Source: Rhodobiaceae bacterium | GTDB taxonomy: Bacteria; Pseudomonadota; Alphaproteobacteria; Rhizobiales; Tepidamorphaceae | Assembly: GCA_020441995.1 (NCBI GenBank) | Contig: JAGRLC010000028.1 | Span: 57,337-118,066 of the forward strand | Direction of reading: 5' to 3' | DNA: 60,730 nucleotides | Shown: positions 30,050-50,063 of the stretch, one piece after another | How the letters are laid out: the number at the start of each line of letters is the position of its first letter | How positions within the stretch are numbered: position 1 is the stretch's first letter | The notes under the pieces: generated by a model | What the model saw: only the letters and a program-made list of their open reading frames with translations | Database searches by the model: none | What the model was told of the DNA's origin: nothing | Position numbers and translations under genes: made by a program

Positions 30050-30053
30050 CGCC

Positions 30054-30848: not shown

Positions 30849-30856
30849 GTGTCACC

Positions 30857-32768: not shown

Positions 32769-32795
32769 GGAGCGCCCCGTTGCAGCCGGTTGGGA

Positions 32796-32823
32796 ACGGG
32801 GCAGCGACTTGATGCTGCCCCGT
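32796..32823 (-). other. intercistronic hairpin after the PotD-like gene
   Basis: Perfect 10-bp stem ACGGGGCAGC / GCTGCCCCGT with an 8-base loop, 19 bases after the binding-protein stop and before the PotA-like ATPase. No U-tract. Confidence 0.65.
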
Positions 32824-32841
32824 CCGATCATGTTGATGCTT

Positions 32842-34130: not shown

Positions 34131-35582
34131 TTATATGCTCATGCAGACGTATTTGATCTCCAGGAACTCATCCATTCCGTATTTCGAGCCCTCGCGCCCG
34201 AGGCCGGATGACTTGATGCCCCCGAAGGGAGCTTCGGCGGTTGAGATCAGGCCGGTGTTGACGCCGACCATGCCGCTTTCAATCTCCTCGGAGACCTTCC
34301 ACACGGTCGACAGATCGCGGCTGTAGAAATAGGCCGCAAGCCCGAACTCGGTGGAATTGGCCATCGATATCGCCTCGTCCACAGTGTCGAAGGAGATGAT
34401 CGGAGCGACGGGACCGAAGGTCTCTTCGCTGAGGACTTTCATGCCTTCCTTCACGCCCTTCAACACCGTCGGCTGGTAGAAGGTGCCGCCAAGCTCCGAG
34501 CGCTTGCCGCCAGTGAGAACGGTCGCGCCCTTCGACGTCGCGTCCTTGACGTGATCCTCGACTTTGGCAAGGCCCTCCTCGTCGATCAGCGGACCGATGT
34601 TGACGCCCTCGGCCGTGCCGTCGCCGACTTTGAGCTTCTCGGTCGCCTTGACCAGTTTCTCCGCGAACTCATCGACCACGCCACTCTGAACATAGATGCG
34701 GTTGGCGCAGACGCAGGTCTGGCCGGAGTTGCGGTACTTGGCGATCAGCGCGCCCTCGACCGCCTTGTCTATATCGGCGTCGTTGAAAACCAGGAACGGC
34801 GCATTGCCGCCAAGTTCCAGCGACAGCTTCTTGATGTCGTGGGCGCACTGCTTCATCAGGATGCGCCCCACCTCGGTCGACCCCGTGAAGGTCAGCTTGC
34901 GCACTTTCGGGTTGGTGCAAAGTTCCAGCCCCATGCCCCTGGAATCCGATCCCGGCACGATGCTGAAGATGCCGGCGGGAACGCCGGCGCGCTCCGCCAG
35001 CTTGGCCATGGCGAGTGCCGACAGCGGGGTCTTTTCCGCAGGCCTGCCGACGAAGGCGCAGCCGGACGCCAGCGCCGGCCCTGCCTTGCGGGCAATCATC
35101 GCATTGGGGAAGTTCCACGGCGTGATCGAGCCGACAACGCCGATGGGCTGTTTCAAGACGACGATGCGCTTGTCTGTCTGGTGACCGGGAATGATGTCGC
35201 CATAAACGCGGCGCGCCTCTTCGGCGAACCACTGCACGAAGCTCGCACCATAGGCGATCTCGCCCTTCGCCTCGGCGAGGGGCTTGCCCATCTCGGCCGT
35301 CAGGATGAGAGCGAGATCATCGGCGTTCTCAAGCATCAGATCGTTCCACTTGAGCAGGATCGCGCAGCGCTCCTTGGCGGTCATGGCGCGCCAGCTCTTC
35401 TGCGCCTCATAGGCCGCATCGATCGCCTCGCGCACATCCTCGGCGCCGAGATCGGCGACGCGGGTCACCTCCTCGCCATTGGCGGGATTGATGACGGGAA
35501 ACGTTTTCTTGCCATCTTTCCACTTGCCACCGACCAGGCCACGCGACTCCAGCAGCTCGGGATCCTTCAGATTTAGCGACAT
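34131..35582 (-). CDS. gabD: succinate-semialdehyde dehydrogenase (GabD/BlcA-like)
   Basis: 483 residues, aldehyde dehydrogenase superfamily, GabD length. Catalytic E256 in LSLELGGNAP and C290 in NSGQTCVCANR; cofactor loop FTGSTEVGR. Oxidises succinate semialdehyde to succinate. The cofactor motif usually reading KPA-x-x-TP is GRPAEKTP here, so the conserved lysine is R180. Last gene of the minus-strand array, 33 bases after the iron alcohol dehydrogenase, together giving 4-hydroxybutyrate to succinate. Confidence 0.9.
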   Translation of the reverse strand: MSLNLKDPELLESRGLVGGKWKDGKKTFPVINPANGEEVTRVADLGAEDVREAIDAAYEAQKSWRAMTAKERCAILLKWNDLMLENADDLALILTAEMGKPLAEAKGEIAYGASFVQWFAEEARRVYGDIIPGHQTDKRIVVLKQPIGVVGSITPWNFPNAMIARKAGPALASGCAFVGRPAEKTPLSALAMAKLAERAGVPAGIFSIVPGSDSRGMGLELCTNPKVRKLTFTGSTEVGRILMKQCAHDIKKLSLELGGNAPFLVFNDADIDKAVEGALIAKYRNSGQTCVCANRIYVQSGVVDEFAEKLVKATEKLKVGDGTAEGVNIGPLIDEEGLAKVEDHVKDATSKGATVLTGGKRSELGGTFYQPTVLKGVKEGMKVLSEETFGPVAPIISFDTVDEAISMANSTEFGLAAYFYSRDLSTVWKVSEEIESGMVGVNTGLISTAEAPFGGIKSSGLGREGSKYGMDEFLEIKYVCMSI

Positions 35583-35615
35583 GATGCCTCTCCATTGTAC
35601 TTTTTTGTGTTTGTC

Positions 35616-36773
35616 TCAGTATGCGGCCTGATAGATCGCGAGCGCGTCGGCTTCTGTAACAGGCCGGGGATTGTTTACAAGCAGGCGCGTCTGGTTCATC
35701 GCATCCGACGCGAGCCTGGGCAGGAAGTCTTCTGCAATATTCATCTCCCGCAGGCTTTGCTGAAGCCCGCAGGCCTTCGACAGGTCCGCCAGCGCATCGC
35801 AGAAAGCCGCCGCTCTTTCCTGCCCCTCATATTTGGCAAGCTCCGGGAAAGCAAAAGGCGCGATTTCGGCATAGGGCTGCGGCGTCGTCGCGGCGTTGAA
35901 CCGCAAAACATGGGGCAGCACCAGCGCGTTGGAAAGCCCGTGCGGGATATGGAAATGCCCGCCGAGCGGATAAGCCAGCGCATGAACGGCGGCGACGGGC
36001 GAATTGGCGAAGGCCTGCCCCGCCAGCATGGAGCCGAGCAGCATGTCGGAACGCGCGTCCATGTCCGAACCTTCATGCACGGCCTTCAGCACCGAACGGC
36101 CCATCAGCGTCAGCGCCTGGCCGGCCAGTATGCGCGAGACGGGATTGTTGTTGGGGCTCGCGGAAGCATAGGCTTCGATCGCATGCACCATGGCATCTAT
36201 GCCGGTTGCCGCGGTGATGTGCGGCGGCAGGCCAAGCGTCAGTTCGGGATCAAGCAACGCGATGTCCGGCAGGATGACCGGCGACACCACGCCCATCTTC
36301 TCGTTGGTGCCCGTCGTGACAATCGAAATCGGCGTTACTTCCGAGCCTGTGCCCGAGGTTGTCGGCACCAGGATCAGCGGCAGGCGCGGCCCCTTGGCAT
36401 TGCCGACACCGTAGATGTCTTTCAGGTTTTCCTTGCCCATGGCGAGCACGGCAACGAGCTTGGCCACATCGAGCGACGAGCCGCCGCCGAGGCCGACGAT
36501 ACCTTCAACGTCCGCGCCCTTGGCCTGCTCCGCCGCCGTAAGGATAATGTGTTCCGGCGGGTCGGCCTCAACATCGCTGAAAACCTCGACGGCGACACCG
36601 GCGGCCTTGAGCGCCTCGAGCGCGCGGTCGACGATACCGGTCTTCACCATGCCCGGATCGGTCACCAGCATCACCCGCTCGCCGATGCTGCCGCGCACCA
36701 GTTCACCGATCTTGCCGAGCAGGCCGGGACCGAACTGGATGCTCTTCGAGGTATTGAATGTGAACGGCTGCAT
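35616..36773 (-). CDS. iron-containing alcohol dehydrogenase (4-hydroxybutyrate dehydrogenase-like)
   Basis: 385 residues. NAD motif GLGGGSSLDVAKL, PTTSGTGSEVTP, metal ligands in GIDAMVHAIEAY and AVHALAYPLGGHFHIPHG. Family members reduce or oxidise short primary alcohols, including 4-hydroxybutyrate. Pairing with succinate-semialdehyde dehydrogenase and a BlcC-like lactonase supports 4-hydroxybutyrate to succinate semialdehyde (inference). Ribosome-binding site AAAGGAGG. Confidence 0.88.
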   Translation of the reverse strand: MQPFTFNTSKSIQFGPGLLGKIGELVRGSIGERVMLVTDPGMVKTGIVDRALEALKAAGVAVEVFSDVEADPPEHIILTAAEQAKGADVEGIVGLGGGSSLDVAKLVAVLAMGKENLKDIYGVGNAKGPRLPLILVPTTSGTGSEVTPISIVTTGTNEKMGVVSPVILPDIALLDPELTLGLPPHITAATGIDAMVHAIEAYASASPNNNPVSRILAGQALTLMGRSVLKAVHEGSDMDARSDMLLGSMLAGQAFANSPVAAVHALAYPLGGHFHIPHGLSNALVLPHVLRFNAATTPQPYAEIAPFAFPELAKYEGQERAAAFCDALADLSKACGLQQSLREMNIAEDFLPRLASDAMNQTRLLVNNPRPVTEADALAIYQAAY

Positions 36774-36805: not shown

Positions 36806-38758
36806 CTATCCGCCGAAGCTGAATGCGATGAGCACGATCAGCACGAAGGCTGCCGCACCTGTGATGACAAGAATGCGCAAGCGCTCCTGCTCCGTGGCGC
36901 TCTGGTCGCGGCGCAGGCGCGGCGGCGGCTCGTAGGCGGGTATCGCGTGCCGGTACGGGCTTGCCATTTCCATCTTGTAGGCAAGAAACCAGACCAGCCC
37001 GACCCCGGTGACCCACGAAGCCAGCGCCCAGGCCCATAGCGACGGCATTCCGACCAGCCAGACCGCACCTTCCGCGCCTGCCTTGCCGAAAGCCGCGTTA
37101 CCGAAAATGAGGCCGGGCCCAAGCGCCAGAAACAGCCAGATCAGCGCCGCGGACCACGCCGTTGAACGCAGGCCATGAGAGCGTTTGGAAGTCCGCAGCG
37201 TATTGTACAGGAAGTCCCGCGCCTCGCGCGCTTCCGCGCCGAAGGCGTCGCGGTTGGTGATCGCCGAGATGATCAGCACGGCTGCGAGGTTCGCCGCCAT
37301 GCCCCAGGCCGCAGAGTGTATTGTCCACGGCCAGCGTCCCCAGGGCAGTTCCAGCCCGAGGAAGGACAGAACCTGATAGCCGAACGGTTCGGTCAGCAGC
37401 ACACCGGCAAGCCCGAACCCGACACCGGTTGCGGCGGCCGGCCGCGTGATCCAGCGCAGCCACGTGACGCCGAGCAGCGGCGTCCAGAGCTGAAAAGCGC
37501 ATGGCAGCGCCAACGCGGCGATGGCCGACAGCGCCACCGGCGTCAGCGATTGCATCAGCACCGTAACGAGGATCAGGACCGCGATGGCTACGCGCGTCAG
37601 GGTCACGGTCGCGCGCCGCGACAGCGTGCTGTGGAAGTACGGCTTGTAGACATGGCGCACCGCGCTTTCGGCGGCCGTCAGCAGCGCAAGGCCGGCCAGC
37701 AACTGCACACCGGCGGCTATGCCGATGAAAACGGTTGCTGCAAACCACGGCGAACCTTCCTGCAATCGCGCCAGCATGGCCTCGACCGACAGCGCGGGAT
37801 GGATCAGGCCCATGGCGCCGATGATGGCGACCGCAAAAGCGATCAGCCCGCCGAAGGCGCCGGCAAGCACCCAGGTCTGACCTGCGCCGAAGCCGTTGGC
37901 ATTGCGCGTCGACAGCACGATCTTGAGCGCCAGCGGGCTTGCCTGGAACCCCATGAAGGCGAGCGCAAGGCTCAGGTTCGCAACGGCGGTATTGGCGGTT
38001 GCCAGTTCCCCGCCCCGGCCAAGTCCGGCGGTGAAATGAATGACGCCGGAAACGAGGAACTTCGCCGCGCCCTCCGGCGTTGCGGCAAGCGCGGACAGTC
38101 CGTTGTTGAGCGCCGCGAAGCCGCCGCTCCAGAACAGCACGAAGCCCGCCAGCGTGACGGTTGCGGCATAGGCGCAGACGGTCTGGATGACGCCGAAATA
38201 GCCGATGGCGCGCATGCCGCCAATGGCGCTTCCCGCAAACAGGATGAAGCCGAGCACGACGCTTGCGGACAGCACCGACACCGTTCCGCCGGTGAGCGTT
38301 TCGATGATCTGCGACAACGCCCGCATCTGCAGGCCGGCAAAACCAACCGCGAAGACCAGGGCAATCAGCGTCGAGACGACAACCAGGAAATGGCTCTCGT
38401 AATAGCTGCGGAAAACCTCGGCCTGCGACGACAGCCGCAGCCGCTGTCCGACGAACCAGATGCGCTTGAAGAAGAACACGCCCGGCAGCGCCAGCGAAAC
38501 GCCGGCGACCAGAACCGATGGAAAAGAGAAGCCATGGGCCGCAACGATGCCGCTGCCGCCGAGCACAAACCAGCCAGACAGGCTGGCGCCCGCAAGTACC
38601 AGCACCGACACCCACGGCGCCAGCGAGTGGCCTGCTGAAAAGAAGGTCTGATAGTCGCCGTTCTCGCGCGCCGCCACGCGTGCCCAGTGGAGCATGACGG
38701 CGACATAGAACAGCCCGTAGAGCGGGAGCCATGCCGATGAAGCTGTCCCGCTCATCAT
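36806..38758 (-). CDS. sodium:solute symporter family permease
   Basis: 650 residues starting MMSGTASSAWLPLYG; about 13-15 transmembrane segments. SSS-family appearance: GHSLAPWVSVLVLAGASLSGW and FAGSAIGGMRAIGYFGVIQT, and a long C-terminal part after residue 450. Longer than typical symporters of about 500 residues. The ATG overlaps the stop of the small membrane protein gene (ATGATGA), so the two are translationally coupled. Substrate unknown; a short organic acid would fit the pathway. Confidence 0.83.
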   Translation of the reverse strand: MMSGTASSAWLPLYGLFYVAVMLHWARVAARENGDYQTFFSAGHSLAPWVSVLVLAGASLSGWFVLGGSGIVAAHGFSFPSVLVAGVSLALPGVFFFKRIWFVGQRLRLSSQAEVFRSYYESHFLVVVSTLIALVFAVGFAGLQMRALSQIIETLTGGTVSVLSASVVLGFILFAGSAIGGMRAIGYFGVIQTVCAYAATVTLAGFVLFWSGGFAALNNGLSALAATPEGAAKFLVSGVIHFTAGLGRGGELATANTAVANLSLALAFMGFQASPLALKIVLSTRNANGFGAGQTWVLAGAFGGLIAFAVAIIGAMGLIHPALSVEAMLARLQEGSPWFAATVFIGIAAGVQLLAGLALLTAAESAVRHVYKPYFHSTLSRRATVTLTRVAIAVLILVTVLMQSLTPVALSAIAALALPCAFQLWTPLLGVTWLRWITRPAAATGVGFGLAGVLLTEPFGYQVLSFLGLELPWGRWPWTIHSAAWGMAANLAAVLIISAITNRDAFGAEAREARDFLYNTLRTSKRSHGLRSTAWSAALIWLFLALGPGLIFGNAAFGKAGAEGAVWLVGMPSLWAWALASWVTGVGLVWFLAYKMEMASPYRHAIPAYEPPPRLRRDQSATEQERLRILVITGAAAFVLIVLIAFSFGG

Positions 38759-39168
38759 GCACCATCGCTCGGCTTGATATGAAACTTGGAGAAGGCGCCG
38801 CGCAGACCGTGCCGTGTCGACAGGTAGATGAACAATCCGGCGGCAAGCACCGAGAACAGTGTCAGGCCCGACCAGAAATCCGCCATGGACATGCCGCCGG
38901 TGAACCAGCTTGCGATGAACACGAAGGCGAGCAGCCCGAAGCCGCCGATACCAAGCGCAACCTCGCCGTTGGCAAACCCGGTATCGAAGACCGCGTTGAC
39001 GATGATGTGGGCAATGAAGGCGGCGACAATGATCGCGATGCCGATAAGCGAGACCCAATAGGCGTCCCGGGTCAGGCCTTCCAGAAGAAAGCCCGCCCCC
39101 AGGAAACCCAACACGGCCCATATCGAAAAGACGAGCAGGTCGCGATCAACGGTCTTCGGCGACGACAT
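38755..39168 (-). CDS. small four-helix membrane protein coupled to the symporter
   Basis: 137 residues with four predicted transmembrane segments (about 11-30, 38-62, 71-90, 97-114) and a basic C-terminus (STRHGLRGAFSKFHIK). No family recognised. Overlap with the symporter gene suggests a small accessory subunit, by analogy with other two-component sodium symporters (inference). Confidence 0.75.
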   Translation of the reverse strand: MSSPKTVDRDLLVFSIWAVLGFLGAGFLLEGLTRDAYWVSLIGIAIIVAAFIAHIIVNAVFDTGFANGEVALGIGGFGLLAFVFIASWFTGGMSMADFWSGLTLFSVLAAGLFIYLSTRHGLRGAFSKFHIKPSDGA

Positions 39169-39189
39169 CTATTGGTCCTAGATCCATTC

Positions 39190-39242
39190 CTAAACGCAAA
39201 TCCGGACGGAAAACCGGCACCCACTTTTCCTGGATTTGCTTA
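39190..39242. repeat. dispersed palindromic intergenic element
   Basis: 8-base perfect arms GCAAATCC (39196-39203) and GGATTTGC (39232-39239) enclosing GGACGGAAAACCGG and CACTTTTCCT. The CGGAAAACCG...CACTTTTCC core resembles, from memory, a dispersed repeat common in Hyphomicrobiales intergenic regions. Only one copy is in this window. It lies between the SPFH gene and the small membrane protein gene and may act as an mRNA processing or stabilising stem. Confidence 0.55.
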
Positions 39243-39275
39243 AGGCCAGACGGGCCGGCCTTGCGCGTCATCTAC

Positions 39276-40976
39276 TCAGCTATCGCTCTTGCTCTTTCCG
39301 GCCTTCGGCTTTGCTTTCGGCTCGGGCGACGGCGGATTGGGCTCCGAATAGACCACCTTGGACAAATCCTGCAGCGTGTGCGTGCGGTGGATGCTGTCGG
39401 GGCTGAGGCCGATCTCGCCGAGCAACTGATCGACGAAGGGCGCCTGCGAGCGATAGCGCAGCGCGGATGACACGACCTGATCGGCGAGATTGCCGTCGCG
39501 CGGCCCCTTGCCGTCCTCGCCGCCATTTCCACCGCCCCTGCCGTCCGTCCCGCCGGCACCGGAGAAGCCCGGCATGCCGTCGACATGGAGGATCTTGATG
39601 CCGTCGATCTTCTCCATCGGCTTGACGCTTTCGCGGATGATGTCGGGCAGCTTCTCCACCAGCGAGCGATGCAGGGCGCTGCGGCGGCTTGCGTCGGAAC
39701 GCAGGTTCTCCGCCTCGTTGAGCTTCTGCTTGCCCTCGGCCTCAACCTTGTAGCGTTCGGCAAGGGCCGCCACCGCAATGCGGTCGGCATCGGCCTTGTC
39801 CTTGGACGCGACCTTCTCGGCCTCGGCAAGGATGCGCAGGCGCGTCGCCTCGGATTCGGCCGCCTTCTGCGCCTCGATCAGTTCGATCGACTTCTGGCGG
39901 TTGGCGATCTCGGTATCGCGGATCGTCTGCACGCGCTCCTGCGCCTCGATCATCTTGGCGCGGGCCGCTTCCGCAATCGCCTGCGCGTCCGAGCGCTCCT
40001 TCGATTTCATCGAGACGGCGATCTCGCGTTCCTGCTCGTCGATCTGAAGCGCTTCCCTGCGCTTGATCTCGAGGCGCTCGATCTCGCGCTCCATGTCGAT
40101 GCGGGTCTTCTCGACCTCCTCGCGCTCCTTCAGCTTGATTGCCTCGATCTCGCGCTCGCGCGCGGCGTTCTCGCTTGCGATCTCCGACTTGCGCTGCGCC
40201 CGGTGGATCGACACCTCGGCCTCGTGAGCAAGGCGTGCGTATTCTGTATCGCGGTCGATTTCCAGGGCGCGCTTTTCCGCCTCCAGGTTCTTGGTGCGCA
40301 TCGAGATCATCGTGTCCTTCTCGATGTCGTTGCGCTTCTTCTTGCGGCTTTCGATCTGCTCGGTGAGGATCGTCAGGCCTTCCGCGTCGAAGGTATTGGA
40401 GGGATCGAACAGGGAAATGTCGGTCTGGTCGAGCGAGGTCAGCGACACCGACTCCAGCTCCAGACCATCAAGAGCAAGGCTCTCGGCGACTTCCTTCTTC
40501 ACTTCCTTGACGAAATCCTGACGGTGCTCATGGATGTGCTCCAGCGTCATCTTCGCGGCCGCACCGCCCATGGCATCGACAAAACGGCCCTGGATCAACT
40601 CCTTGAGCTGTTCGGCATGCATGGTCCGGTTGCCGAGCGAGCGCGCCGCCGTTGCGACGGCCGCATCATCGGGCGAGACGCGGACATAGAACTCGACGGT
40701 GAGTTCGATGCGCATGCGATCCTTGGTGATGAGCGACTTCTCGCGCGCCCGGATCACCTCCAGACGCAGCGTGTTCATGTTCACTTCGGTGATGTCGTGC
40801 AAGATCGGCAGCACGAACGCGCCCCCACCCATGACGACCTTTTCGCCGCCGAAGCCGGTGCGCACGAACGAAATATCCTTCGTCGACCTGCGGTAGAGCC
40901 AATGCAGCAGATAGGCGCAAACCGCGATGACGATCGCCGCAAGGATGATGATGGCAATGATATCCGCACCCGTCAT
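39276..40976 (-). CDS. flotillin-like SPFH/band 7 protein
   Basis: 566 residues. One N-terminal membrane helix (about 5-27), SPFH domain (about 30-200, with VVMGGGAFVLPILHDITEVN and LTVEFYVRVSPDDA), a long charged coiled coil (about 215-440) rich in E, K and R, and a C-terminal tail with a Gly-rich stretch (about 475-495) and a Pro/Lys-rich end. Layout of YqiK/flotillin proteins, which form ring-shaped scaffolds in ordered membrane patches. Ribosome-binding site GAAGGA. Next to the rhodopsin-like gene. Confidence 0.9.
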   Translation of the reverse strand: MTGADIIAIIILAAIVIAVCAYLLHWLYRRSTKDISFVRTGFGGEKVVMGGGAFVLPILHDITEVNMNTLRLEVIRAREKSLITKDRMRIELTVEFYVRVSPDDAAVATAARSLGNRTMHAEQLKELIQGRFVDAMGGAAAKMTLEHIHEHRQDFVKEVKKEVAESLALDGLELESVSLTSLDQTDISLFDPSNTFDAEGLTILTEQIESRKKKRNDIEKDTMISMRTKNLEAEKRALEIDRDTEYARLAHEAEVSIHRAQRKSEIASENAAREREIEAIKLKEREEVEKTRIDMEREIERLEIKRREALQIDEQEREIAVSMKSKERSDAQAIAEAARAKMIEAQERVQTIRDTEIANRQKSIELIEAQKAAESEATRLRILAEAEKVASKDKADADRIAVAALAERYKVEAEGKQKLNEAENLRSDASRRSALHRSLVEKLPDIIRESVKPMEKIDGIKILHVDGMPGFSGAGGTDGRGGGNGGEDGKGPRDGNLADQVVSSALRYRSQAPFVDQLLGEIGLSPDSIHRTHTLQDLSKVVYSEPNPPSPEPKAKPKAGKSKSDS

Positions 40977-41033
40977 TGGAGTGTTCCTTCACTGGTCGGC
41001 TGGTTGGAGGGCGTAAGCGTGCTTGAGCGGAGA

Positions 41034-41735
41034 TCAGCCATCTTTCCGCTCCTCGCCATCGAGCATCGCGGCGGCAAGCACCGCGACGCCGAACGCCATC
41101 CGGTTGAGAAAATCGGCGATATTGTAGGCGACACTCAAAGCACCGGTGTCGACATAACCACCGAAGGAGGTGATGAAATTGCCGAGCGGGTAGATCGCCC
41201 ACCCGACGGTGACGATGAGGCGCAGCCAGAAGTAGCCGCGCTTTACGGGATCGCTCATCGAGGCGCGAACCGCCTCGTCCATGCGCCCGAAGAACAGCTC
41301 GCCGAGAATGTAGAGCCAGAACACGAGCCCGATCAGGAAGGCGAGCGTTGCGTGCATGTAGGCGGCTTCGCCCAGATAGCGCACGAAGACCATCAGGATG
41401 GAGACGACGACCAGGCGCCAGAACAGCCCGATCCCGAGTTTTCCTTCCCGGCCCGCATAGAAATAGAGTGCCAGCACCTGTAGCGGCATCGACACCGCCC
41501 AGCCGACATAGTGATAGACGATGGGTACCTTGCCAGCGGCAAGCCAGGCAGCCCGCGCCTCATAAACGGCGCCGACGCCGACGAGCGCGGCAAGGGCGCA
41601 GAGCGCCACCGTCACCTTCCACGTGCGCCCGACCCAGGCGGTACCCAGCAGCAGGAAGGCGGCTGTTGCCGCGAGGCCGAATACGGCTGTCGAATAGCTC
41701 GCCGCGGTCAGGTCCGCTGTCTCATACACGGCCAT
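41034..41735 (-). CDS. microbial-rhodopsin homologue lacking the retinal lysine
   Basis: 233 residues, seven transmembrane segments. Helix F carries VGWAIYPLGN (177-186) and helix G YNIADFLNRMAFG (204-216), matching proteorhodopsin GWAIYP and YNLADFVNK; helix C reads YHYVGWAVSMPLQ (74-86). Aligned to proteorhodopsin numbering, Lys231 is R212 (codon CGG), the proton acceptor Asp97 is G78, Arg94 is H75, Glu108 is A89, while Asp227 remains as D208 and Trp98 as W79. It therefore cannot form the retinal Schiff base and has lost the proton-pump path; a sensor, scaffold or small-molecule-binding role is possible. 57 bases separate it from the SPFH gene. GGGGGA stands before the ATG. Confidence 0.85.
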   Translation of the reverse strand: MAVYETADLTAASYSTAVFGLAATAAFLLLGTAWVGRTWKVTVALCALAALVGVGAVYEARAAWLAAGKVPIVYHYVGWAVSMPLQVLALYFYAGREGKLGIGLFWRLVVVSILMVFVRYLGEAAYMHATLAFLIGLVFWLYILGELFFGRMDEAVRASMSDPVKRGYFWLRLIVTVGWAIYPLGNFITSFGGYVDTGALSVAYNIADFLNRMAFGVAVLAAAMLDGEERKDG

Positions 41736-41783: not shown

Positions 41784-43163
41784 TTAGATTTGCGTCCTGA
41801 TGTGCGGGGAGCGCGCGTAGAGCGCCACCATCGGCAGGATCAGAAGTCCGAAGATGAATTGCTGCCATTCGAAATCGAGCCCGATGCCGATCAGGAACGA
41901 GGACAGGACCTGAAGCACCAGCACGCCGATGACGGTGAAGCCGTAGCCGCCCTGGCCGCCGAGCAGCGAGGTGCCGCCGACGACGACAGCGGCAAGCGTC
42001 AGGAACAGGTATTGGTCGCCGACACCGATGAAGCCGCCACCGGACCAGCCGAGCAGCAGGCTGCCGGTCATCGCAGCGAAAAAGCCGGAGATCGCATACA
42101 TCATCACCCAGTAGGCGAGCTCGGAAATCATCACGCGCTTTGCAGAGGTCCGGTTTACGCCCAGCGCATAGAGGTAGCGGCCATACAGCGTGTAACGCAT
42201 GCCGAGGATCAGGATCATCGCCAGCGCCCCCCAGATGGCGATGACCGGCGGGAATGGCAGCCCGAAGGTGGAGCCGTTCATCGCGGCGAGGTTCGACAGC
42301 CAGGGCGGCACGGTGCCGAACACGTTGCCGCTATAGGCGGAGCCGATGGAGGTGAGGATCTGCACGCCGCCGGAAATCGCAAAGCCTGTTCCAAGCGTCA
42401 CGATCAGCGCCTGCCCCTGAAGCCGGTAGCTGAGAAAACCGTTGATGACGCCGAGCAGCGCACCGATGGCAAGCACCAGGATCACCGCAAGCCAGGGCGG
42501 CACGCCAAGGCCGATGAGATAGAGCAGCCCGACATTGGCGGCGCCGATGATGAAGGGAATGGACAGGTCCAGCCCGCCAAGCAGCGCGACAAGGGTCTGG
42601 CCAACCGAGGCGATGCCGAGGAAGGATGCAAACAGCAGCATCGACTTGATGTTGATGGCTGATGCGAAACCCTCGATGTTCATCGCGCCGATGGAGAACA
42701 GTCCCGACAGCACCATGATGCCGATGAAGGCGGAGCGGTTTTCCTGAAACTGCCGGCCAAGCGTGCGGGTCAGCACGATGATGGTCAGCAGGATCAGTAG
42801 CGAGACAACGTTCCAGACATTGAAAAAGCCTTCGATCGTCAGCGACAGCGCAAGGAAGGCGAGCAGGATCACGATCAGCCCGTAGATCGCGGGCCGGAAC
42901 TGCAGCCATGTCTTGCGCGCTTCGCTGATCTCGCCTTCGGCAACGGGCGGGCCTTCGCTGATGAACTGGCCGAGCACGAAACGCCAGCCCCAGGTAAAAG
43001 CGGCCAGCGTCGCGATTGCCGACAGGATGATGAGCTGGACGCTCAGTCCCTGAACGAAGCCGAAGATCACGCCGATCGCGGTCAGCGCGATACCCGCCGC
43101 AAGGCCGATGATGGTTGCCGGCAAGCCGAGTTTCGGGGTCTGTGTTTCGAAGGCGGCGGTCAT
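41784..43163 (-). CDS. ribose-type ABC transporter permease, enlarged
   Basis: 459 residues, BPD_transp_2 (RbsC) family. The core, with IGLGVPPWLAVILVLAIGALLG, LGTGFAISGG and LGGQGGYGFTVIGV near the end, occupies roughly residues 120-455. About 110 extra N-terminal residues include two or three additional membrane segments and a cytoplasmic or periplasmic loop (SEGPPVAEGEISEARKTW). Partner of the second permease upstream; overlaps it by four bases. Confidence 0.88.
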   Translation of the reverse strand: MTAAFETQTPKLGLPATIIGLAAGIALTAIGVIFGFVQGLSVQLIILSAIATLAAFTWGWRFVLGQFISEGPPVAEGEISEARKTWLQFRPAIYGLIVILLAFLALSLTIEGFFNVWNVVSLLILLTIIVLTRTLGRQFQENRSAFIGIMVLSGLFSIGAMNIEGFASAINIKSMLLFASFLGIASVGQTLVALLGGLDLSIPFIIGAANVGLLYLIGLGVPPWLAVILVLAIGALLGVINGFLSYRLQGQALIVTLGTGFAISGGVQILTSIGSAYSGNVFGTVPPWLSNLAAMNGSTFGLPFPPVIAIWGALAMILILGMRYTLYGRYLYALGVNRTSAKRVMISELAYWVMMYAISGFFAAMTGSLLLGWSGGGFIGVGDQYLFLTLAAVVVGGTSLLGGQGGYGFTVIGVLVLQVLSSFLIGIGLDFEWQQFIFGLLILPMVALYARSPHIRTQI

Positions 43164-44593
43164 ACGGGCGCCTCCTGAAGCGCGGGCCGAGCCGGCGGCG
43201 TTTCAACGTTTGCCTGCCGCATCATGTAAGCACCCAGCAGCACCAGCGCGGAGATCACCACCACGACGGCGGGCGCAATCGTTTTCCGGTCGGACTGCGA
43301 GACGGCAACGCGGACGAAGACGGCGATGACGACGAGCAGTATCGACGACAGGACGAACGGTGCCGCGAAGCTGCGGAGGGCCTTCTCCTCCTCACCTACG
43401 GCAGGAACTTCAAGCGGCGCGACATAGAGGTTCTGCGGCGGGATCGGTTCCAGCCTGACGAAGGCTTGCGGCGTCGGCGTCTCGGCGGGCGCGCGGTTCT
43501 GATAGTCGTTCGTCGCGTGCAGGATGACGCCGAGCGCGATCACCGACAGGGAAACGAAGTAGAGCACCGGCGAGAAGTTGCGGATATGGCGCTGGATGAA
43601 GGGGATCAGCAGCGTCAGCAGCAACGAGGCAACCAGGATCGTGCCATAGGCAAGGCTGGTGACGAAGCTCTGCACCGCGCCGAAGTTGAACGTCGCCAGC
43701 ACGAAGGTGATCAGGTAGAGATTGACCGCGCCGAGGAAGGAGCCGAACGCCCCGCCCCGCCCGCCGGCGAGCGATGCCCCGCCCAGCACCAGCGCGGTGA
43801 CCGCGATCAGCGTATAGGTCGTGCCCTGCGAGGGATCGCCCGACGAAATCAGCGCTGTGAAGGTGATCGCTGCAAGGCCCGCGAAGCAGCCCGAAATCAG
43901 ATGTGCGCCGATGCGCACGAGGTAGATCGGCACGCCGCTGGTATAGGCGGCGCGCTCGTCCGATCCCATCAGCCGCAGGTGCGTGAAAAACGCGGTCTGG
44001 GTGAACAGCAGCCAGCCAATGGTCGCCAGAACAAGGATCAGCAATACCGGCGAGAAGATCGTCGTGCCCAGGCCCCATTCCGACATCCATTGCGGCGCAA
44101 GGCCGCCGGGGCGCGGCAGGATGACAAGGTTGATGCCCGAAAGCGCCAGATAGCCCGATAGCGAAACGATGATCGGCTGTACCCGGATATAGATAACCAC
44201 CAGCGCGAACAGGAACTGGTACAGCGCGCCGACGGCAATCGCGTAGCCGAAGACAGCAAAGGGATTTTCCAGGATACCAGCGCCGTGCAGCTGAATCAGC
44301 GTTACGTTGACGAAGCCGATCAGCGGGCCGATGGAGAGATCGACCGTGCCCCGCCCGGCGATGACCGAGGCCATCAGCGCATAGGTCGCAAGTACCAGCG
44401 GCGTCGCGACGATGATCGCGCTGCCGATGCCGTTGCTCGTCATCAGGCTCGGCGAACGCAGCACCGCCAGTCCGAGCAGGCCGAAGAACAGCGTGATCGG
44501 CACCAACAGGAACGGGTTCGCCCGTCCGCCCTGCGCCGGTTCGGCCTCTTTCGTTTCCGCCCCTATGGCGATGTTGGCGGTTACGTCGCTCAT
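43160..44593 (-). CDS. ribose-type ABC transporter permease, enlarged
   Basis: 477 residues, RbsC family core at about 30-330 with GRGTVDLSIGPLIGFVNV, LSGYLALSGINLVIL and ALVLGGASLAGGRGGAFG. A C-terminal extension of about 130 residues has further membrane segments flanking a Pro/Glu-rich soluble loop (NRAPAETPTPQAFVRLEPIP). Overlaps the ATPase gene and the next permease gene by four bases each. Confidence 0.88.
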   Translation of the reverse strand: MSDVTANIAIGAETKEAEPAQGGRANPFLLVPITLFFGLLGLAVLRSPSLMTSNGIGSAIIVATPLVLATYALMASVIAGRGTVDLSIGPLIGFVNVTLIQLHGAGILENPFAVFGYAIAVGALYQFLFALVVIYIRVQPIIVSLSGYLALSGINLVILPRPGGLAPQWMSEWGLGTTIFSPVLLILVLATIGWLLFTQTAFFTHLRLMGSDERAAYTSGVPIYLVRIGAHLISGCFAGLAAITFTALISSGDPSQGTTYTLIAVTALVLGGASLAGGRGGAFGSFLGAVNLYLITFVLATFNFGAVQSFVTSLAYGTILVASLLLTLLIPFIQRHIRNFSPVLYFVSLSVIALGVILHATNDYQNRAPAETPTPQAFVRLEPIPPQNLYVAPLEVPAVGEEEKALRSFAAPFVLSSILLVVIAVFVRVAVSQSDRKTIAPAVVVVISALVLLGAYMMRQANVETPPARPALQEAPV

Positions 44594-46419
44594 CGCCCGA
44601 TACTCTTCGCCGCGCCGGTCTTCGCATCGAACTCGACAATGCGGATCAGTTTGGCCGCCGCCGGTGTGCGCGGCCGCTGCATGGGGACAATGGCGCCGTG
44701 TTCTTCGGGAACGGTAATTCCGCTGGCAGCGGCCTGCGTGCGTGCCTTCATTTCCGCGCGGATGTCTTCGGGCACCTCGACCGCGACCTTGACGCCATCT
44801 GTGGTCCGGCCTGAAACCTCATTATCCACATCCGCCGCGATGCCCTGCCCGTTGCTCAAACCGCTGCCGTCGGTCTGGCCGAACATGGCTTCGAGGATCG
44901 CCTTGGGGTCGAGCTTGCGCCCGTCGAACGCATCGAAGGGCGCGCCGTCGCGGAACACGATGACGCGGCTGGCAAAGCCAATGAATTCCTCAAGTTCCGA
45001 CGACATGTAGACGACCGACTTGCCCTCTTCGGCAAAGGTGCGCAGGTGCTTGTAAAGCTCGTTCTTTGCGCCGACGTCGATGCCGCGCGCGGGATCGTTC
45101 AGCACGATGATGTCGGGGCGCATGGCGAAGCCGCGCCCGATCAGCACCTTTTGCTGGTTACCGCCCGACAGCGAGGTGATCAGGTCTTCCTTCATGCCGA
45201 ACTTGATGAGGAGATTGTCGGCCTCGCGCTTGAACAGCGTAGACAGTGTCGCGCGGTCGATGATGCCCAGAATCCCGGCCCGCTTCTTCTCGCGGTAGAG
45301 CGGCATGACCATGTTCTCGAAGATCGAGAGAGAGGCGAAGATGCCCTCACGCTTGCGGTCGCCGGAAACATAGACGACGCGGTTCGCGACCGCATCGGCA
45401 AGGCTGCGTACCGGGTTCAGTTCGCCGTGGCGGTCGGCAACCTGAACCAGCCCGGCCTGCGCCGGCTCGACACCGGCAATGACCCGCACGAAGGCATCCT
45501 GCCCCTGCCCGTCGAGACCGGCAATGCCGACAATCTCGCCATGGCGCAGGTTGAAATCGAACGTCTTGCCGCCCGGCCAGACCGCGATGCCGCTGGCCTT
45601 CATGGCGAGCGCATCATCCGTCGGCTGGGGACCATGCTGATCGTGATGGGCGCCGGCTTCCTCGTCACCGGTCATCAGCGCCAGCAGGTTCTTTTCGGTG
45701 ATCTCTTCCTTTTCCAATACACCGACATCTCGCCCGTCGCGCAGCACGGTCGCGCGGTCGGAAATGCGGATCAGTTCGGCAATCCGGTGCGTGACGATCA
45801 GCACGGTTGTACCCGCATCTCGCATCGCGCGCATACGCGCGAACAGCCGCTCGGTGCTGTCGAAATCGAGCGCGGCGGAGCTTTCATCGAGGATCAGGAT
45901 CTTCGGATCACTGAGCATGGCGCGGGCAATTGTGATCCACTGCTTGATACCAAGCGGCAGGGTTCCGACAATCGCGTGCGGGTCGATCGGCTCGCCGCAC
46001 AGTTCGCGCATCAGTTCGCTGGCCCGCGCCACCTTGCGCTCGTAGGACAGCGTCTTGGAGAACAGCGCGTCAGCACCCATGAAAATGTTGTCGACGACCG
46101 AACTCTCGTCGGCGACGAGCACCTCCTGATAGACGGTGGAGATGCCGAGAGCCCGGCTCTCCGCCGGCGTTGAAGGTGTTTCCCCCAGGATGGAGACAGA
46201 ACCGCTGTCGATTGGAAGAATGCCGGAAACCACCTTGGCCAGCGTGCTCTTGCCGCAGCCATTGCCGCCCACCACCGCGTGAATCTCGCCGGCGCGCGCG
46301 GAAAAGCTCACGCCATCAAGCGCACGGGTCGGCCCGAAGTATTTCTTCACATTGCGCACGACGATCGTCTCGCGACGCGGTGCGGCCTGTGTTTTTTCTT
46401 CAGGTTGCGGCGACATCAA
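44590..46419 (-). CDS. ribose-type ABC transporter ATPase (two NBDs) with C-terminal tail
   Basis: 609 residues, against about 500 in RbsA-type proteins. NBD1: Walker A GGNGCGKST, Walker B ILILDESSAALD, with a degenerate signature LPLGIKQW. NBD2: intact signature SLSGGNQQKVLIGRG but Walker B IIVLNDPARGIDVGAK, where DE of the usual LDEPTRG is ND. Residues 518-609 form an extra tail ending RIVEFDAKTGAAKSIGR, which resembles the first residues of the lactonase of the same operon (KIVEFDDKG). Drives import with the two enlarged permeases. Confidence 0.9.
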   Translation of the reverse strand: MMSPQPEEKTQAAPRRETIVVRNVKKYFGPTRALDGVSFSARAGEIHAVVGGNGCGKSTLAKVVSGILPIDSGSVSILGETPSTPAESRALGISTVYQEVLVADESSVVDNIFMGADALFSKTLSYERKVARASELMRELCGEPIDPHAIVGTLPLGIKQWITIARAMLSDPKILILDESSAALDFDSTERLFARMRAMRDAGTTVLIVTHRIAELIRISDRATVLRDGRDVGVLEKEEITEKNLLALMTGDEEAGAHHDQHGPQPTDDALAMKASGIAVWPGGKTFDFNLRHGEIVGIAGLDGQGQDAFVRVIAGVEPAQAGLVQVADRHGELNPVRSLADAVANRVVYVSGDRKREGIFASLSIFENMVMPLYREKKRAGILGIIDRATLSTLFKREADNLLIKFGMKEDLITSLSGGNQQKVLIGRGFAMRPDIIVLNDPARGIDVGAKNELYKHLRTFAEEGKSVVYMSSELEEFIGFASRVIVFRDGAPFDAFDGRKLDPKAILEAMFGQTDGSGLSNGQGIAADVDNEVSGRTTDGVKVAVEVPEDIRAEMKARTQAAASGITVPEEHGAIVPMQRPRTPAAAKLIRIVEFDAKTGAAKSIGR

Positions 46420-46481: not shown

Positions 46482-47651
46482 TTATTTCTTGTAGTCGGCC
46501 GGGTCGGCCGGGTTGACGAAGAACTGGTCGAGGTAAGCCGACGAACCCCACTTGTCCTTGCCGACATTGAGCCAGTCCTGAGCATTCTCGTCGCAGTCTT
46601 CCGCCAGCAGCGCCTTGACGTCGTCATGGGTGATGATCACCGGATCGACGAGGACCGACTGCACCTTCGGACCCTGGCCGAGCAGTGTACGCATCATGAT
46701 GTCCCAGATCAGCGCGATGTCGTCGCCGGGGGGCCATGTCTGCACGGCGCTGTCGATCAGGTCGGGGTTCTTGCGCCAGGTGCACAGCGCACCGCGCTCA
46801 CCGCCGACGGTGACCTTCACGCCCTGACGGCCCGACTGCTGCAGCGCGCGCAGCACGCCCATTTCGGCCGCCGACTGCACGGCGATGCCGTCGAGTTTGC
46901 CGGGGTGCGTTGCAAGCCACTTCTGGACTTCGCCCTGGGCGACCTGATCGGTCCACATGCCGGCGATGGAGCCGACGACCTTGATGCCGGGCGCGGTGGC
47001 AAGACCGGCCTTCACACCACGGTCCTGACTGTCGGAGCCGGACGTGCCGGGGATGCCCTCGACCACGAGGACGTTACCTTCGCCGCCGAGTTCCTCGGCG
47101 AGGCGCTTGCCGATCTCGAAGCCGGCAACCTGATAGTTGACCGAGGAATTGATCGCGGTCGGCGCGGTCAGATAACCGGTCAGCGAGAACGTCGGCACGC
47201 CCTTGTCATAAGCGTACTGGACGGTCTGGTTCAGCGCCGTCGGGTTGGAACAGCACACGAAGATCGCATCGACGCCCTGATCGACAAGCTGGCGCATCTG
47301 CTGGATCTGTGTGGAGTCGTTGAGGTTCGACTGGGTGATGACGACCTCGCTGATCAGCCCGAGCTCCTTGTACTTCGGGATAATGACGTTCTGCAGGTAA
47401 TCCATGGCGTTGGCGCGCCAGGTGTTGCCGGCATAGGACGAGGCGTAGCCGATCTTCCACGGCGGCGGATTCTTGGCCTTGAAGTCACGCAGCGGGCTGG
47501 GCTCGACCGGCTGCGCGGGATCGAGCATGTCCGGGTTGTAAAGCCTTTCGGCTACCGCCGGATCGAGTTCATCCACGCCCTCGGCGCTGGATGCTATGGC
47601 GCCCGACAGCAGGATACCTGCCGCGGCCGCCAATGTGGCTAATACTCTCAT
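46482..47651 (-). CDS. ABC transporter substrate-binding protein (sugar-type, Peripla_BP_4)
   Basis: 389 residues. Signal peptide MRVLATLAAAAGILLSG, cleavage near ASS-AEG. A roughly 45-residue Pro-rich segment precedes the fold, which begins KIGYASSYAGNTWRANAMDY; QLVDQGVDAIFVCCSNPTA and VVEGIPGTSGSDSQDRG are RbsB/XylF-like features. The start is the second ATG, because GGGAGG touches the first and lies nine bases before the second. Supplies ligand to the ABC transporter downstream; with the lactonase upstream, a lactone or sugar lactone is a candidate (inference). Confidence 0.9.
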   Translation of the reverse strand: MRVLATLAAAAGILLSGAIASSAEGVDELDPAVAERLYNPDMLDPAQPVEPSPLRDFKAKNPPPWKIGYASSYAGNTWRANAMDYLQNVIIPKYKELGLISEVVITQSNLNDSTQIQQMRQLVDQGVDAIFVCCSNPTALNQTVQYAYDKGVPTFSLTGYLTAPTAINSSVNYQVAGFEIGKRLAEELGGEGNVLVVEGIPGTSGSDSQDRGVKAGLATAPGIKVVGSIAGMWTDQVAQGEVQKWLATHPGKLDGIAVQSAAEMGVLRALQQSGRQGVKVTVGGERGALCTWRKNPDLIDSAVQTWPPGDDIALIWDIMMRTLLGQGPKVQSVLVDPVIITHDDVKALLAEDCDENAQDWLNVGKDKWGSSAYLDQFFVNPADPADYKK

Positions 47652-47781
47652 TGAGTTCATCCTCCCTTGTGATTTCAGTGTGGGACGTCGCGGGCGTTCC
47701 CGTTTGCATCCCGGTTTCGTTTCAGGCTCCCCTCGCCTTTTCGTCCTCCCCTGCCTTGCTTGGCCGGCTGAAGCTGCCGCC

Positions 47782-48717
47782 TCAGTCGTAGAAATCGTGC
47801 GGCGCCTTCAGGAACGTCTTCCAGTTGTCCGGGTCGTGGCCGGTGACGACCATGGCGCCTGTGTCCTTCGCGACCTGCCGCAACTTGGCGACGGAATCGG
47901 CCGCCTCCGCAGACGACACGACGAGACCCGGCAGTGCCTTGTTCTCCCAGTGATCGAGCGTGTAGGCGGCATCGATGGTCAGCAGCACCGGCCCGGTCTT
48001 GGGCAGGTTGATCAGGAACGACTGGTGTCCCGGCGCGTGACCCGGCGTGAAGATCGTGCGGATGACGCCATCGCCGAACAGGTCATAGAAGTCGGTGTAT
48101 TCGCCGCCGAGGAACTTCCAGTTGAGGCCGGGGCGGTCGAAATCGGCCCGGATGTAGGCACCGGAGGAGAACCAGTGCGGATCGTAGGCGTATTCATACT
48201 CGCGCCGCTGCACGACGATCTGCGCGTTGGGGAAATGACCGATCGCACCGGTGTGATCGAGGTGCAGATGCGACTGCAGAACGTAGCGCACCGAATGCGG
48301 ATCGACGCCGACCATCTTGCACTGGTCTACGCAATTGTCGGCGACATCCATGACCGGATCGTAGGCATCGACCACCGCCCCCCAGTGACCGCGCTTGTCG
48401 ATGGCCACCTCGATGGCATTGCCGCCGTCTATGACGACGTTGCCCATCGGGTGCTTGATCAGGAACCAGGGAACCGGGATCTCGAAGTCGCTCTCGCCCT
48501 GGTTCATCTTGATGTATTTGAGCTTGGTCCGCAGCGTTCCGGTCTGGAACATGTAAAGCTCGATGCCCGACGAGTTGCGGCCCCGGCGTGAGGCTTCGGG
48601 CGCCCGCGACGGCCTTTCCGGGCGCGGCGCAAGGCTGCTCGAACCAAGGCTCGAGGATACCGAACCCGCATCGGTTTCGACGCGCTGGCCCTTGTCGTCG
48701 AATTCCACGATCTTCAT
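47782..48717 (-). CDS. metallo-beta-lactamase-fold lactonase (BlcC/AttM-like)
   Basis: 311 residues. Dinuclear metal site H150-x-H152-x-D154-H155 (SHLHLDHTG), H227 (TPGHAPGH), D249 (TIDAAY), H294 (VTGHDPDN), the pattern of the AttM/BlcC and AiiA lactonases that open gamma-butyrolactone or acyl-homoserine lactones. The first 50 residues are a Ser/Arg/Pro-rich extension (SSSLGSSSLAPRPERPSRAP) without known function. In the same array as a 4-hydroxybutyrate-type dehydrogenase and succinate-semialdehyde dehydrogenase. Confidence 0.87.
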   Translation of the reverse strand: MKIVEFDDKGQRVETDAGSVSSSLGSSSLAPRPERPSRAPEASRRGRNSSGIELYMFQTGTLRTKLKYIKMNQGESDFEIPVPWFLIKHPMGNVVIDGGNAIEVAIDKRGHWGAVVDAYDPVMDVADNCVDQCKMVGVDPHSVRYVLQSHLHLDHTGAIGHFPNAQIVVQRREYEYAYDPHWFSSGAYIRADFDRPGLNWKFLGGEYTDFYDLFGDGVIRTIFTPGHAPGHQSFLINLPKTGPVLLTIDAAYTLDHWENKALPGLVVSSAEAADSVAKLRQVAKDTGAMVVTGHDPDNWKTFLKAPHDFYD

Positions 48718-48766: not shown

Positions 48767-49615
48767 TCACGTGCGCTCCCCGATGAGGCGCAGGGCCTCC
48801 TTCAGGTAGACCGCGAACAGCGGATAGTTCTCCGACATCGGGAAGTGCCCGATGTCTTCCATCTCGATGTAGATGCCGCCGGGGATCTGCCGGGCCGTGG
48901 CCTCGGTCGCTTCCGGCGGTGTCAGGTAATCGTAGGTTCCGGTCATCATCACGACAGGGCAGCGCCGGGTGTCGATGCCGCCCAGCTTGCCGCGCAGGTC
49001 GTGATCGACCGAGTAGAAGAAGAGATCGCCTTTGAAGACCTCGGAGCCCTGCGTGTAGTAGTGCCAGGTCAGCCAGCGGTCCATGTCCGGGCTTTGCGGC
49101 GCCATCAGATCCCAGACGCCCGAGGCGCAGACCTGGGCCGCGTTGGCATGGGGGTGGCGCCACCAGTCGAGGAAGAAACCCGGCGCATGCTCGGCCGCCT
49201 CGACGGGAATTACGGCCTTGAAGCGGTCCGGATGATGCAGCGCCAGCTGGAGGGCGACATTGCCGCCAAAAGAGGAGCCCATGAAAATCGGGTCTTCGAG
49301 CTCCAGCGCGTCGCAGAAGGCGACGATGAAATTCATGTAGTGATCGGCGGTCAACCGGTACTCTTCCTTCCACCACTCCTTGTTGAGCGGGGGATCGGAC
49401 TTGCCGTGGCGGGCAAGGTCATAGGCGATGACGTCGTAATTCGCGGTGATCTCGGGGTCTTCCAGCAGGTCGCGCCACTGGTGATTATGGCAGCCCGCCG
49501 TGTGCTGGCAGACCAGCGGAATGCCCGAACCGTTGCGCAGATAGAAAACCTTGTACTCGCAGCCGTCGACCTCGATGGTCACATAGCGGCCGACTACGGG
49601 CGAATGCTTGGCCAT
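48767..49615 (-). CDS. alpha/beta hydrolase
   Basis: 282 residues. Oxyanion region LVCQHTAGCHNHQW, nucleophile elbow GSSFGG, acid TGTYDYLT and catalytic histidine IGHFPMSE near the C-terminus. An esterase, lactonase or C-C hydrolase acting on a small molecule; it may prepare the substrate of the lactonase 50 bases downstream (inference). GGAG seven bases before the ATG. Confidence 0.88.
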   Translation of the reverse strand: MAKHSPVVGRYVTIEVDGCEYKVFYLRNGSGIPLVCQHTAGCHNHQWRDLLEDPEITANYDVIAYDLARHGKSDPPLNKEWWKEEYRLTADHYMNFIVAFCDALELEDPIFMGSSFGGNVALQLALHHPDRFKAVIPVEAAEHAPGFFLDWWRHPHANAAQVCASGVWDLMAPQSPDMDRWLTWHYYTQGSEVFKGDLFFYSVDHDLRGKLGGIDTRRCPVVMMTGTYDYLTPPEATEATARQIPGGIYIEMEDIGHFPMSENYPLFAVYLKEALRLIGERT

Positions 49616-49673: not shown

Positions 49674-50063
49674 TCATACCGGCACACCAACCTTGCGCAG
49701 CAGTTCGAACTGGACGGTGAAATTGCGCAGGTTCTGCATCAGGACGAGAACGTTGCCCTCGATCTTGAGATCGCGGCGGAAGCTGGCCGACCAGATGCCG
49801 TGATACATCGGATCGGGAACGGGACGGGCGAACTCGCGCCATGTCTGGGGGCTTGCCCTCAGCGCGAAGTCGTAGGAGTCCATGGGAGCCGGGTCGATGT
49901 TGACCTCGTGCACCTTGCCGTCAACCATCCGCACGATGACCTTGGCGTTGCCCATGTCCCACAGGTAGGTGCAGGTGAAATACCGCGCCATGGCGCCGAT
50001 CGTCTGATCGCGATCGGATGCCTCGCTGAACCGGACGGCCCAATCCCTGACTGTCATCGCCAA
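49674..50063 (-). CDS. small SCP2-like protein
   Basis: 129 residues. The C-terminal half (YDFALRASPQTWREFARP, then RRDLKIEGNVLVLMQNLRNF) has the spacing of SCP2 sterol-carrier-like domains, which bind hydrophobic small molecules; this is a weak resemblance by eye. A TTG start at 50063 with GGAGGA seven bases upstream is better placed than the ATG six bases later. First gene of the lactonase array and divergent from the IclR regulator. Confidence 0.65.
   Translation of the reverse strand: MAMTVRDWAVRFSEASDRDQTIGAMARYFTCTYLWDMGNAKVIVRMVDGKVHEVNIDPAPMDSYDFALRASPQTWREFARPVPDPMYHGIWSASFRRDLKIEGNVLVLMQNLRNFTVQFELLRKVGVPV

Follow-up and report, generated by a model that had tools for sequence, protein, structure and literature searches.

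In the present study, we analysed a 60,730-nucleotide stretch of a Rhodobiaceae bacterium genome (GenBank assembly GCA_020441995.1, contig JAGRLC010000028.1, positions 57,337 to 118,066; hereafter the window), in which four consecutive minus-strand membrane genes at 41735-36806 encode a rhodopsin, a flotillin, a four-helix protein and an SSF symporter. A preliminary description had singled out these four genes as a membrane assembly or sensing device lying between an importer and dehydrogenases. They were found to belong to a run of 13 minus-strand genes (50063 to 34131), mostly overlapping or separated by gaps of no more than about 120 bp, in a host genome that is about 75% complete. The position given earlier was correct. 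The module does not stand alone, since both flanking gene sets are part of the same conserved unit. The features are listed below in the order of the run, followed by the divergent regulator gene.

49674..50063 (-): SCP2-like small protein, first gene of the operon; start TTG at 50063 or ATG at 50057; 64-83% to homologues by tblastn
48767..49615 (-): alpha/beta hydrolase; Abhydrolase_1, 79.9 bits
47782..48717 (-): AttM-type lactonase with N-terminal tagged extension; NF045700, 427.7 bits (cut-off 390)
48697..48717 (-): lactonase N-terminal tag MKIVEFD; GGGGA-like sequence 5' of the ATG
46482..47660 (-): CUT2-type substrate-binding protein; Peripla_BP_4, 123.5 bits; PDB matches to CUT2 binding proteins
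44590..46419 (-): ATP-binding cassette (ABC) ATPase with two ABC_tran domains (Pfam), variable linker and C-terminal tag (tail sequence)
44626..44643 (-): ATPase C-terminal tag RIVEFD, from the tag pattern search
43160..44593 (-): ABC permease 1 with an added three-helix C-terminal segment, about residues 334-477 (Pfam and comparison with relatives)
41784..43163 (-): ABC permease 2 with an added four-helix N-terminal segment, about residues 1-138; BPD_transp_2 at 172-443
41034..41735 (-): flotillin-associated rhodopsin (FArhodopsin), 233 residues (Pfam Bac_rhodopsin, PDB matches, alignment)
39276..40976 (-): flotillin, SPFH/Band_7 and Flot domains (Pfam), 566 residues, adjoining the rhodopsin
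38755..39168 (-): small four-helix membrane protein, 137 residues (AlphaFold2 model)
36806..38755 (-): SSF-family symporter, 649 residues (Pfam SSF); its start overlaps the stop of the small gene
35616..36773 (-): iron-containing alcohol dehydrogenase (Fe-ADH), BlcB-like (Pfam; 53.5% to BlcB)
34131..35582 (-): succinate-semialdehyde dehydrogenase (SSADH), BlcA-like; TIGR01780, 714.5 bits (cut-off 646); 62.6% to BlcA
50239..51036 (+): IclR-family regulator, BlcR-like, divergent; IclR_C, 92.1 bits; 42.7% to BlcR

The first gene product scored 15.5 bits against the SCP2 model, under the cut-off of 21.3. A 771-residue frame for the symporter (36806-39121) was rejected because its start lies too early; the true ATG is at 38755.

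The rhodopsin scored 80.5 bits against Bac_rhodopsin (PF01036; cut-off 24.6), and its best PDB matches were 9r21 and 9r23, entitled 'flotillin-associated rhodopsin' (E 1e-45; 159 bits vs 122 for the best proteorhodopsin). By these match scores and the adjacent same-strand flotillin, we assigned the window rhodopsin to the FArhodopsin family, referred to below as FAR for its loci and genomes. The flotillin scored 61.6 bits for Band_7 and 121.5 bits for Flot (cut-offs 23.6 and 27), and the gap between the two genes was 57 bp. In all 38 loci, which had been chosen as FArhodopsin loci, a flotillin gene lay directly downstream on the same strand, 27-128 bp from the rhodopsin. The block was retained at rhodopsin identities of 33-42%, so the pair is not confined to close relatives, and the earlier view that the genes are not a random set was confirmed by this conservation. 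The rhodopsin-flotillin pair was published in 2023 under the FArhodopsin name (Haro-Moreno et al., PMC10308929), which also appears in PMC10308909, and structures have already been solved (PDB 9r21/9r23, each holding five chains).

The sequence alignment revealed that Arg212 occupies the position of the retinal-binding lysine and Gly78 that of the helix C aspartate, so both residues expected of a retinal-binding microbial rhodopsin are missing. At the positions that we take to be Arg94, Asp97, Thr101 and Glu108 of proteorhodopsin, the window protein has His, Gly, Ser and Ala, respectively. Of 30 aligned FArhodopsins, 19 have Arg at the lysine position, 5 have Leu and 6 have Lys. Genomes G016, G165, G598 and G768 retained the lysine and contained neither the retinal-making enzyme Blh nor a second rhodopsin, so the lysine by itself is no sign of retinal use.

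The genome content pointed in the same direction. A PF01036 search showed that FArhodopsin was the only type-1 rhodopsin in 34 distinct genomes (FAR-only genomes). The first set held 21 genome entries, 20 of them distinct (G013 and G077 represent the same place), with exactly one rhodopsin each; in the second set of 17, 14 were FAR-only with one rhodopsin, G671 and G748 had two, and G659 gave a sub-threshold match only. Blh (PF15461) was found in none of the 34 FAR-only genomes, some of which are incomplete (75% for the window's, 61% for G165), in a search limited to Blh among retinal-forming enzymes and not extending to retinal uptake. By contrast, it was present in all eight genomes with a canonical rhodopsin, namely the SAR11-like G671 and G748 and six proteorhodopsin genomes. 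With one rhodopsin and no Blh in the FAR-only genomes, a light-pump partner is not general. The window's genome likewise had a single rhodopsin and no accompanying proteorhodopsin within its 75% completeness; such a partner is an observed correlate and not a sequence criterion of the family. Lycopene cyclase was discarded as a retinal test because general FAD enzymes match its model as well (10 of 14 control genomes); counted by full-length strong matches only, it occurred in 1 of the 34 FAR-only genomes (G044) vs 7 of the 8 canonical-rhodopsin genomes. The residues thus bore out the earlier description of the protein as chromophore-less, the missing Blh strengthened it, and on residues and genome content together we rejected a light-driven or sensory role of the window rhodopsin.

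When 84,980 species genomes were scanned with the window rhodopsin, a search that reached close relatives only, 18 loci were found, with hosts including Hoeflea alexandrii, Zhengella mangrovi and isolates of Rhizobium and Stappia. FArhodopsin also occurred on plasmid records of Martelella, Hoeflea, Pararhizobium gei and Shinella, one of which is predicted to be conjugative. The occurrence of FArhodopsin in named cultured Hyphomicrobiales is new. In a 'phylum' genome sample, matches came solely from the window's own order. An unselected survey of the order detected a rhodopsin in 34 of 397 genomes; among the 20 whose contexts were read (20 kb, or limited by the contig), 12 had an adjacent flotillin and 8, with a proteorhodopsin or another type, did not. 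The window and G013 add two with a flotillin, and the remaining 12 were left out. Separately, five genomes of one genus (loci L049, L050, L051, L056, L057) held a rhodopsin in an open frame of 370-394 residues, and no flotillin was seen in the three contexts read (L062, L065, L070). The record CP070278.1, labelled 'Dysgonomonadaceae bacterium zrk40', resembled the Martelella lutilitoris plasmid NZ_CP066788 (246,192 and 246,197 bases; same identity and source), and its host label is doubtful.

The loci fell into three groups. Group A comprises the window and 25 loci with an AttM lactonase and the IclR regulator, which stays beside the block; group B comprises L061 and L097-L101, and group C comprises L064, L066, L071, L074 and L113. 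The contigs of L060 and L068 were too short to include the ATPase and lactonase. The best-conserved gene of the block was the alpha/beta hydrolase, with 78-94% identity to groups A and B. Identities to the window in groups B/C were 70/74% for the permease 2 core, 66/67% for the permease 1 core, 60/62% for the binding protein, 57/47% for the ATPase core (one group C row being the wrong ATPase), 53/50% for flotillin, 36/40% for rhodopsin and 31/29% for the symporter. Within group B, the SAR11-like clusters also contain PxpA, biotin carboxylase and an N,N-dimethylformamidase-like gene; carboxyltransferase and biotin-carrier genes lie further out, and L061 has HyuA and HyuB. As a separate observation, the group C ABC ATPase was fused to a phosphatidylethanolamine-binding protein (PEBP) domain, PF01161 (L064:14739-16925, L071:3210-5399, L113:5571-7700).

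The importer showed the marks of the CUT2 type, with BPD_transp_2 permeases, a double ABC ATPase and a Peripla_BP_4 binding protein. FAR permease 2 carried about 140 extra N-terminal residues with three to four predicted helices in 36 of 37 loci by script, and in the exception, L067, the extension was present behind a non-ATG start. FAR permease 1 carried 125-487 extra C-terminal residues (36 of 36 loci; those of L098 and L097 may include frame breaks). In the comparison set (nine rows from eight genomes in which no rhodopsin is linked, L092 and L105 being the same genome), only 2-13 residues followed the permease 1 core, and 25-42 residues preceded the permease 2 core apart from L102, where permease 2 runs upstream into permease 1 and ends at the contig edge. 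No rhodopsin was found in the comparison loci; seven of the genomes fall outside the survey's 34 rhodopsin genomes, and G659 had none over the cut-off. Curated models of related sugar permeases have 321-375 positions. The permease 2 structure model had a mean predicted local distance difference test (pLDDT) score of 66.2, which is good for helix positions only. Judged from these comparisons, the predicted extra membrane helices on both permeases are a trait of FAR loci that is absent in relatives from rhodopsin-free genomes.

The symporter scored 29.4 bits for SSF (cut-off 22.8). The small protein gave no family above cut-off in Pfam or NCBIfam scans; its AlphaFold2 model was a four-helix bundle (mean pLDDT 87.9) without a match to PDB folds at E <= 0.001. 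We rejected its assignment as a DUF4212 symporter subunit, for which Pfam and NCBIfam gave no such match. The suggestion of a small subunit coupled to the symporter held in that the two genes overlap and co-occur in groups A and C; it did not hold for DUF4212, and the small gene was absent in group B. In that group, where the small gene is missing, permease 1 has a far longer C-terminal extension of about 414-487 residues, for the most part predicted to form 9-10 helices. To see whether the small protein might be hidden in this longer permease 1, two of the extensions were searched by BLAST, with no match to the small protein.

A short terminal peptide was shared by the lactonase and the ATPase. 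Of 32 lactonases, 26 had the strict tag [KR]I[IV]EFD, in every case immediately behind the start methionine; 26 of 37 ATPases had it 16-22 residues before their C-terminal end. The 26 loci were the same for both proteins. The strict tag had no match in 12 other gene families (19-38 proteins each), and 0.002 of 37 shuffled ATPase tails matched it. Conservation of the tag residues was 0.81-1.0 vs about 0.15-0.4 in the ATPase linker, and tag and linker were absent from the BlcC protein of the Agrobacterium plasmid pAtC58 and from the comparison ATPases. The six untagged lactonases belonged to group B and the 11 untagged ATPases to groups B and C; among the latter, the L100 ATPase is truncated where its contig stops and the L074 match belongs to a different ATPase. 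The ATPases of L061, L097, L098, L099 and L101 terminate in looser tags, and bipartite tags end the biotin carboxylase (L100, L101) as well as HyuB and a 231-residue open reading frame of L061. A 111-residue protein in L097 and L099, with a similar frame in L098, consists of five tag copies. In a whole-genome search, the start-anchored tag was detected in 16 of 24 FAR genomes and 0 of 8 others, with none for the reversed pattern; 16 of the 17 matches lay in the FAR cluster and the seventeenth in a 31-residue frame. The unanchored tag gave 21 matches in six FAR genomes, 16 in the cluster and five elsewhere, internal to frames. A literature search for the tag strings returned an unrelated occurrence only. 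A second motif, [YF][KTE]xxDxxxFx[KR][ILVM], occurred four times in the 231-residue L061 frame (L061:1378-2073; shuffled 0.0), and was also N-terminal in SAR11-like lactonases (L100, L101) and a PxpB-like protein (L169:2707-3966). The otherwise variable linker of tagged lactonases held a conserved patch, approximately SLAPRP (window 48619-48639, minus strand; lactonase residues 27-33).

Encapsulation peptides of bacterial microcompartments are short conserved terminal peptides on unrelated enzymes. The FAR tag resembles them by analogy only, being short, terminal, attached to unrelated enzymes and set off by variable linkers; it differs in its peptide sequence, in the membrane-importer setting and in that no shell proteins were present among the genes read.

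The catabolic genes resembled the blcABC/attKLM system of pAtC58. An AttM-family lactonase lay in the same operon as SSADH and Fe-ADH (34131-36773), and all four pAtC58 proteins, including the IclR-type repressor, had counterparts in or beside the window operon, with identities of 62.6% (BlcA), 53.5% (BlcB), 64.6% (BlcC) and 42.7% (BlcR). According to PMC4086400, AttKLM breaks gamma-butyrolactone down to succinate. Unlike blcABC, the window has the lactonase early and the dehydrogenases at the end of a long operon with the importer, opsin and flotillin, and BlcC does not have the N-terminal tag of the window lactonase. Fe-ADH was present in every group A locus except four Rhizobium-type ones (L015, L016, L019, L020), and some SSADH misses fell at contig or stretch ends. 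The lactam-opening genes of group B (PxpA, HyuA/B, PxpC) suggest small cyclic esters or amides as a possible common theme.

PMC10308929 describes lysine-less freshwater FArhodopsins, with Arg among the published variants, and clusters that include an inner-membrane translocator, a sodium symporter and Fe-ADH. The same study searched cultivated marine genomes for rhodopsin paralogues and reports none beyond known exceptions. The window shares with them the rhodopsin family, the flotillin directly downstream, the lysine loss and these three cluster genes. In contrast to the published cases, the present loci occur in cultured Hyphomicrobiales hosts with larger genomes and neither proteorhodopsin nor Blh, and have Blc-like catabolic genes, extended permeases and terminal tags. 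None of the words lactonase, Hoeflea, Rhizobi-, C-terminal and metabolon occurs in the main text of PMC10308929, and in literature other than preprints and subscription papers we found no FArhodopsin study besides the two naming papers. Hence, the pair is known, and the operon setting, blindness and tags are new to the literature covered.

Taken together, these results suggested that the four genes supply the membrane portion of a unit for uptake and catabolism. The helix-extended CUT2-type importer, with the SSF symporter alongside, would import a small ester- or lactone-like compound, and the flotillin and blind opsin would build or stabilise a membrane patch housing the importer. Cytosolic partners would be tethered at this patch: the ABC ATPase and lactonase may dock on a common partner via their shared terminal peptide, and in other lineages biotin carboxylase, a 5-oxoprolinase subunit or HyuB would be tethered instead. 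In the window, ring opening by the lactonase and alpha/beta hydrolase would most likely give 4-hydroxybutyrate, which Fe-ADH would convert to succinate semialdehyde and SSADH to succinate, under the IclR-type regulator, as in Agrobacterium blcABC. We regard such a membrane-tethered uptake metabolon, with tag-docked enzymes and a Blc-like route, as on balance probable. The gene content, its conservation, the loss of Lys and Asp, the absent Blh, the permease extensions and the shared tags were directly observed, and from them we infer co-assembly, docking, the substrate and a structural, possibly lipid-scrambling, role of the opsin. It is quite possible, although we hold this more tentatively, that it represents a new kind of metabolon, in which blind opsin and flotillin organise the extended importer, a previously undescribed peptide family ([KR]I[IV]EFD and bipartite variants) recruits interchangeable enzymes, and the five-copy protein is a multivalent bridge in one lineage.

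Several observations weigh against this interpretation. Identities of 43-63% of Fe-ADH, SSADH and IclR to BlcA, BlcB and BlcR do not by themselves prove the substrate. Neither Fe-ADH nor SSADH turned up in the stretches of L015, L016, L019 and L020, in group C or in the initial stretches of group B, so not every lineage has the 4-hydroxybutyrate route; further on, within its next 20 kb, G748 held an Fe-ADH and an aldehyde dehydrogenase 54% and 62% identical to the window's. The five group C loci lack both the tag and an AttM lactonase and still retain rhodopsin, flotillin, importer and symporter, so the membrane core does not depend on the tag. A blind C-terminal tag search of 385 genomes gave 14 matches vs 7 for the reversed pattern, and three were real by inspection. 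These bipartite-tag carriers were two known SAR11-like clusters and the PxpC of G568. The latter find, made by the tag alone, speaks for the interpretation, as an Fe-ADH (55%) and a lactonase (64%) similar to the window's lie on the same 4.5-kb contig. Finally, the flotillin itself has no tag, and the conservation pattern points to the SCP2-like protein and alpha/beta hydrolase, not flotillin, as possible tag partners: their identities to the window in groups B/C were 66/27% and 82/46%, respectively. Being common to the tag-bearing lineages, these two proteins are candidate receptors, although this correlation may only reflect different paralogues in group C.

An unlikely but serious alternative is that the opsin is a light-independent lipid scramblase in a flotillin patch, linked to the importer through lipid supply and not contact. 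Actinorhodopsin pentamers scramble phospholipids independently of retinal, and PMC12805836 puts this activity forward as an explanation of opsins in genomes without the last retinal-synthesis gene. The five chains in 9r21/9r23, the SCP2-like gene in the operon and the PEBP domains of group C would fit, and the proposal of a retinal-independent role in genomes without a retinal-making gene parallels our case; however, the opsin scramblase in PMC12805836 still binds retinal, whereas FArhodopsin has lost both lysine and counter-ion. Scrambling has no sequence signature, and it leaves the constant link to one extended importer and the tags unexplained. It is compatible with the metabolon interpretation as the opsin's biochemical activity.

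We consider it improbable that the shared peptides are another signal, such as stability or folding peptides, or chance inheritance. That no binding partner is known for the peptide speaks for such a reading, but the same peptide stands on unrelated proteins, at either terminus and after variable linkers, the tags are lost together in group C, and one small protein holds five copies. Similarly doubtful is a rhodopsin fold acting as a chemosensor or small-molecule-binding importer subunit, with another ligand replacing retinal. The helix F pocket residues (GWA.YP) and Asp208 are indeed invariant or nearly so in aligned FArhodopsins despite the lysine loss, but the block has no transducer gene, and the published marine models show a reduced or absent pocket (PMC10308929). 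The published proposal that FArhodopsin helps a proteorhodopsin pump in dim light agrees with the proteorhodopsin always present in marine hosts (PMC10308929) and with the second rhodopsin and Blh of two SAR11-like genomes, but is refuted for FAR-only lineages by the 34 genomes described above, unless retinal and pump come from outside the PF01036/PF15461 families, and is thus very improbable here.

For the role of retinal-less rhodopsins, the FAR-only lineages detach the opsin from light, having neither pump partner nor retinal enzyme, and they provide hosts in culture, a defined metabolic context and a pathway that can be named. If the tags dock, they would give bacteria a way to couple nutrient uptake with catabolism at a flotillin patch, and the peptide, being portable, could be put to use elsewhere for bringing enzymes to membranes.

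Downstream of the 13-gene run, at window 27242-33906, lies a separate operon for a polyamine-type ABC importer and two FAD oxidoreductases. A polyamine-type importer was also found within about 20 kb of two SAR11-like FAR clusters.

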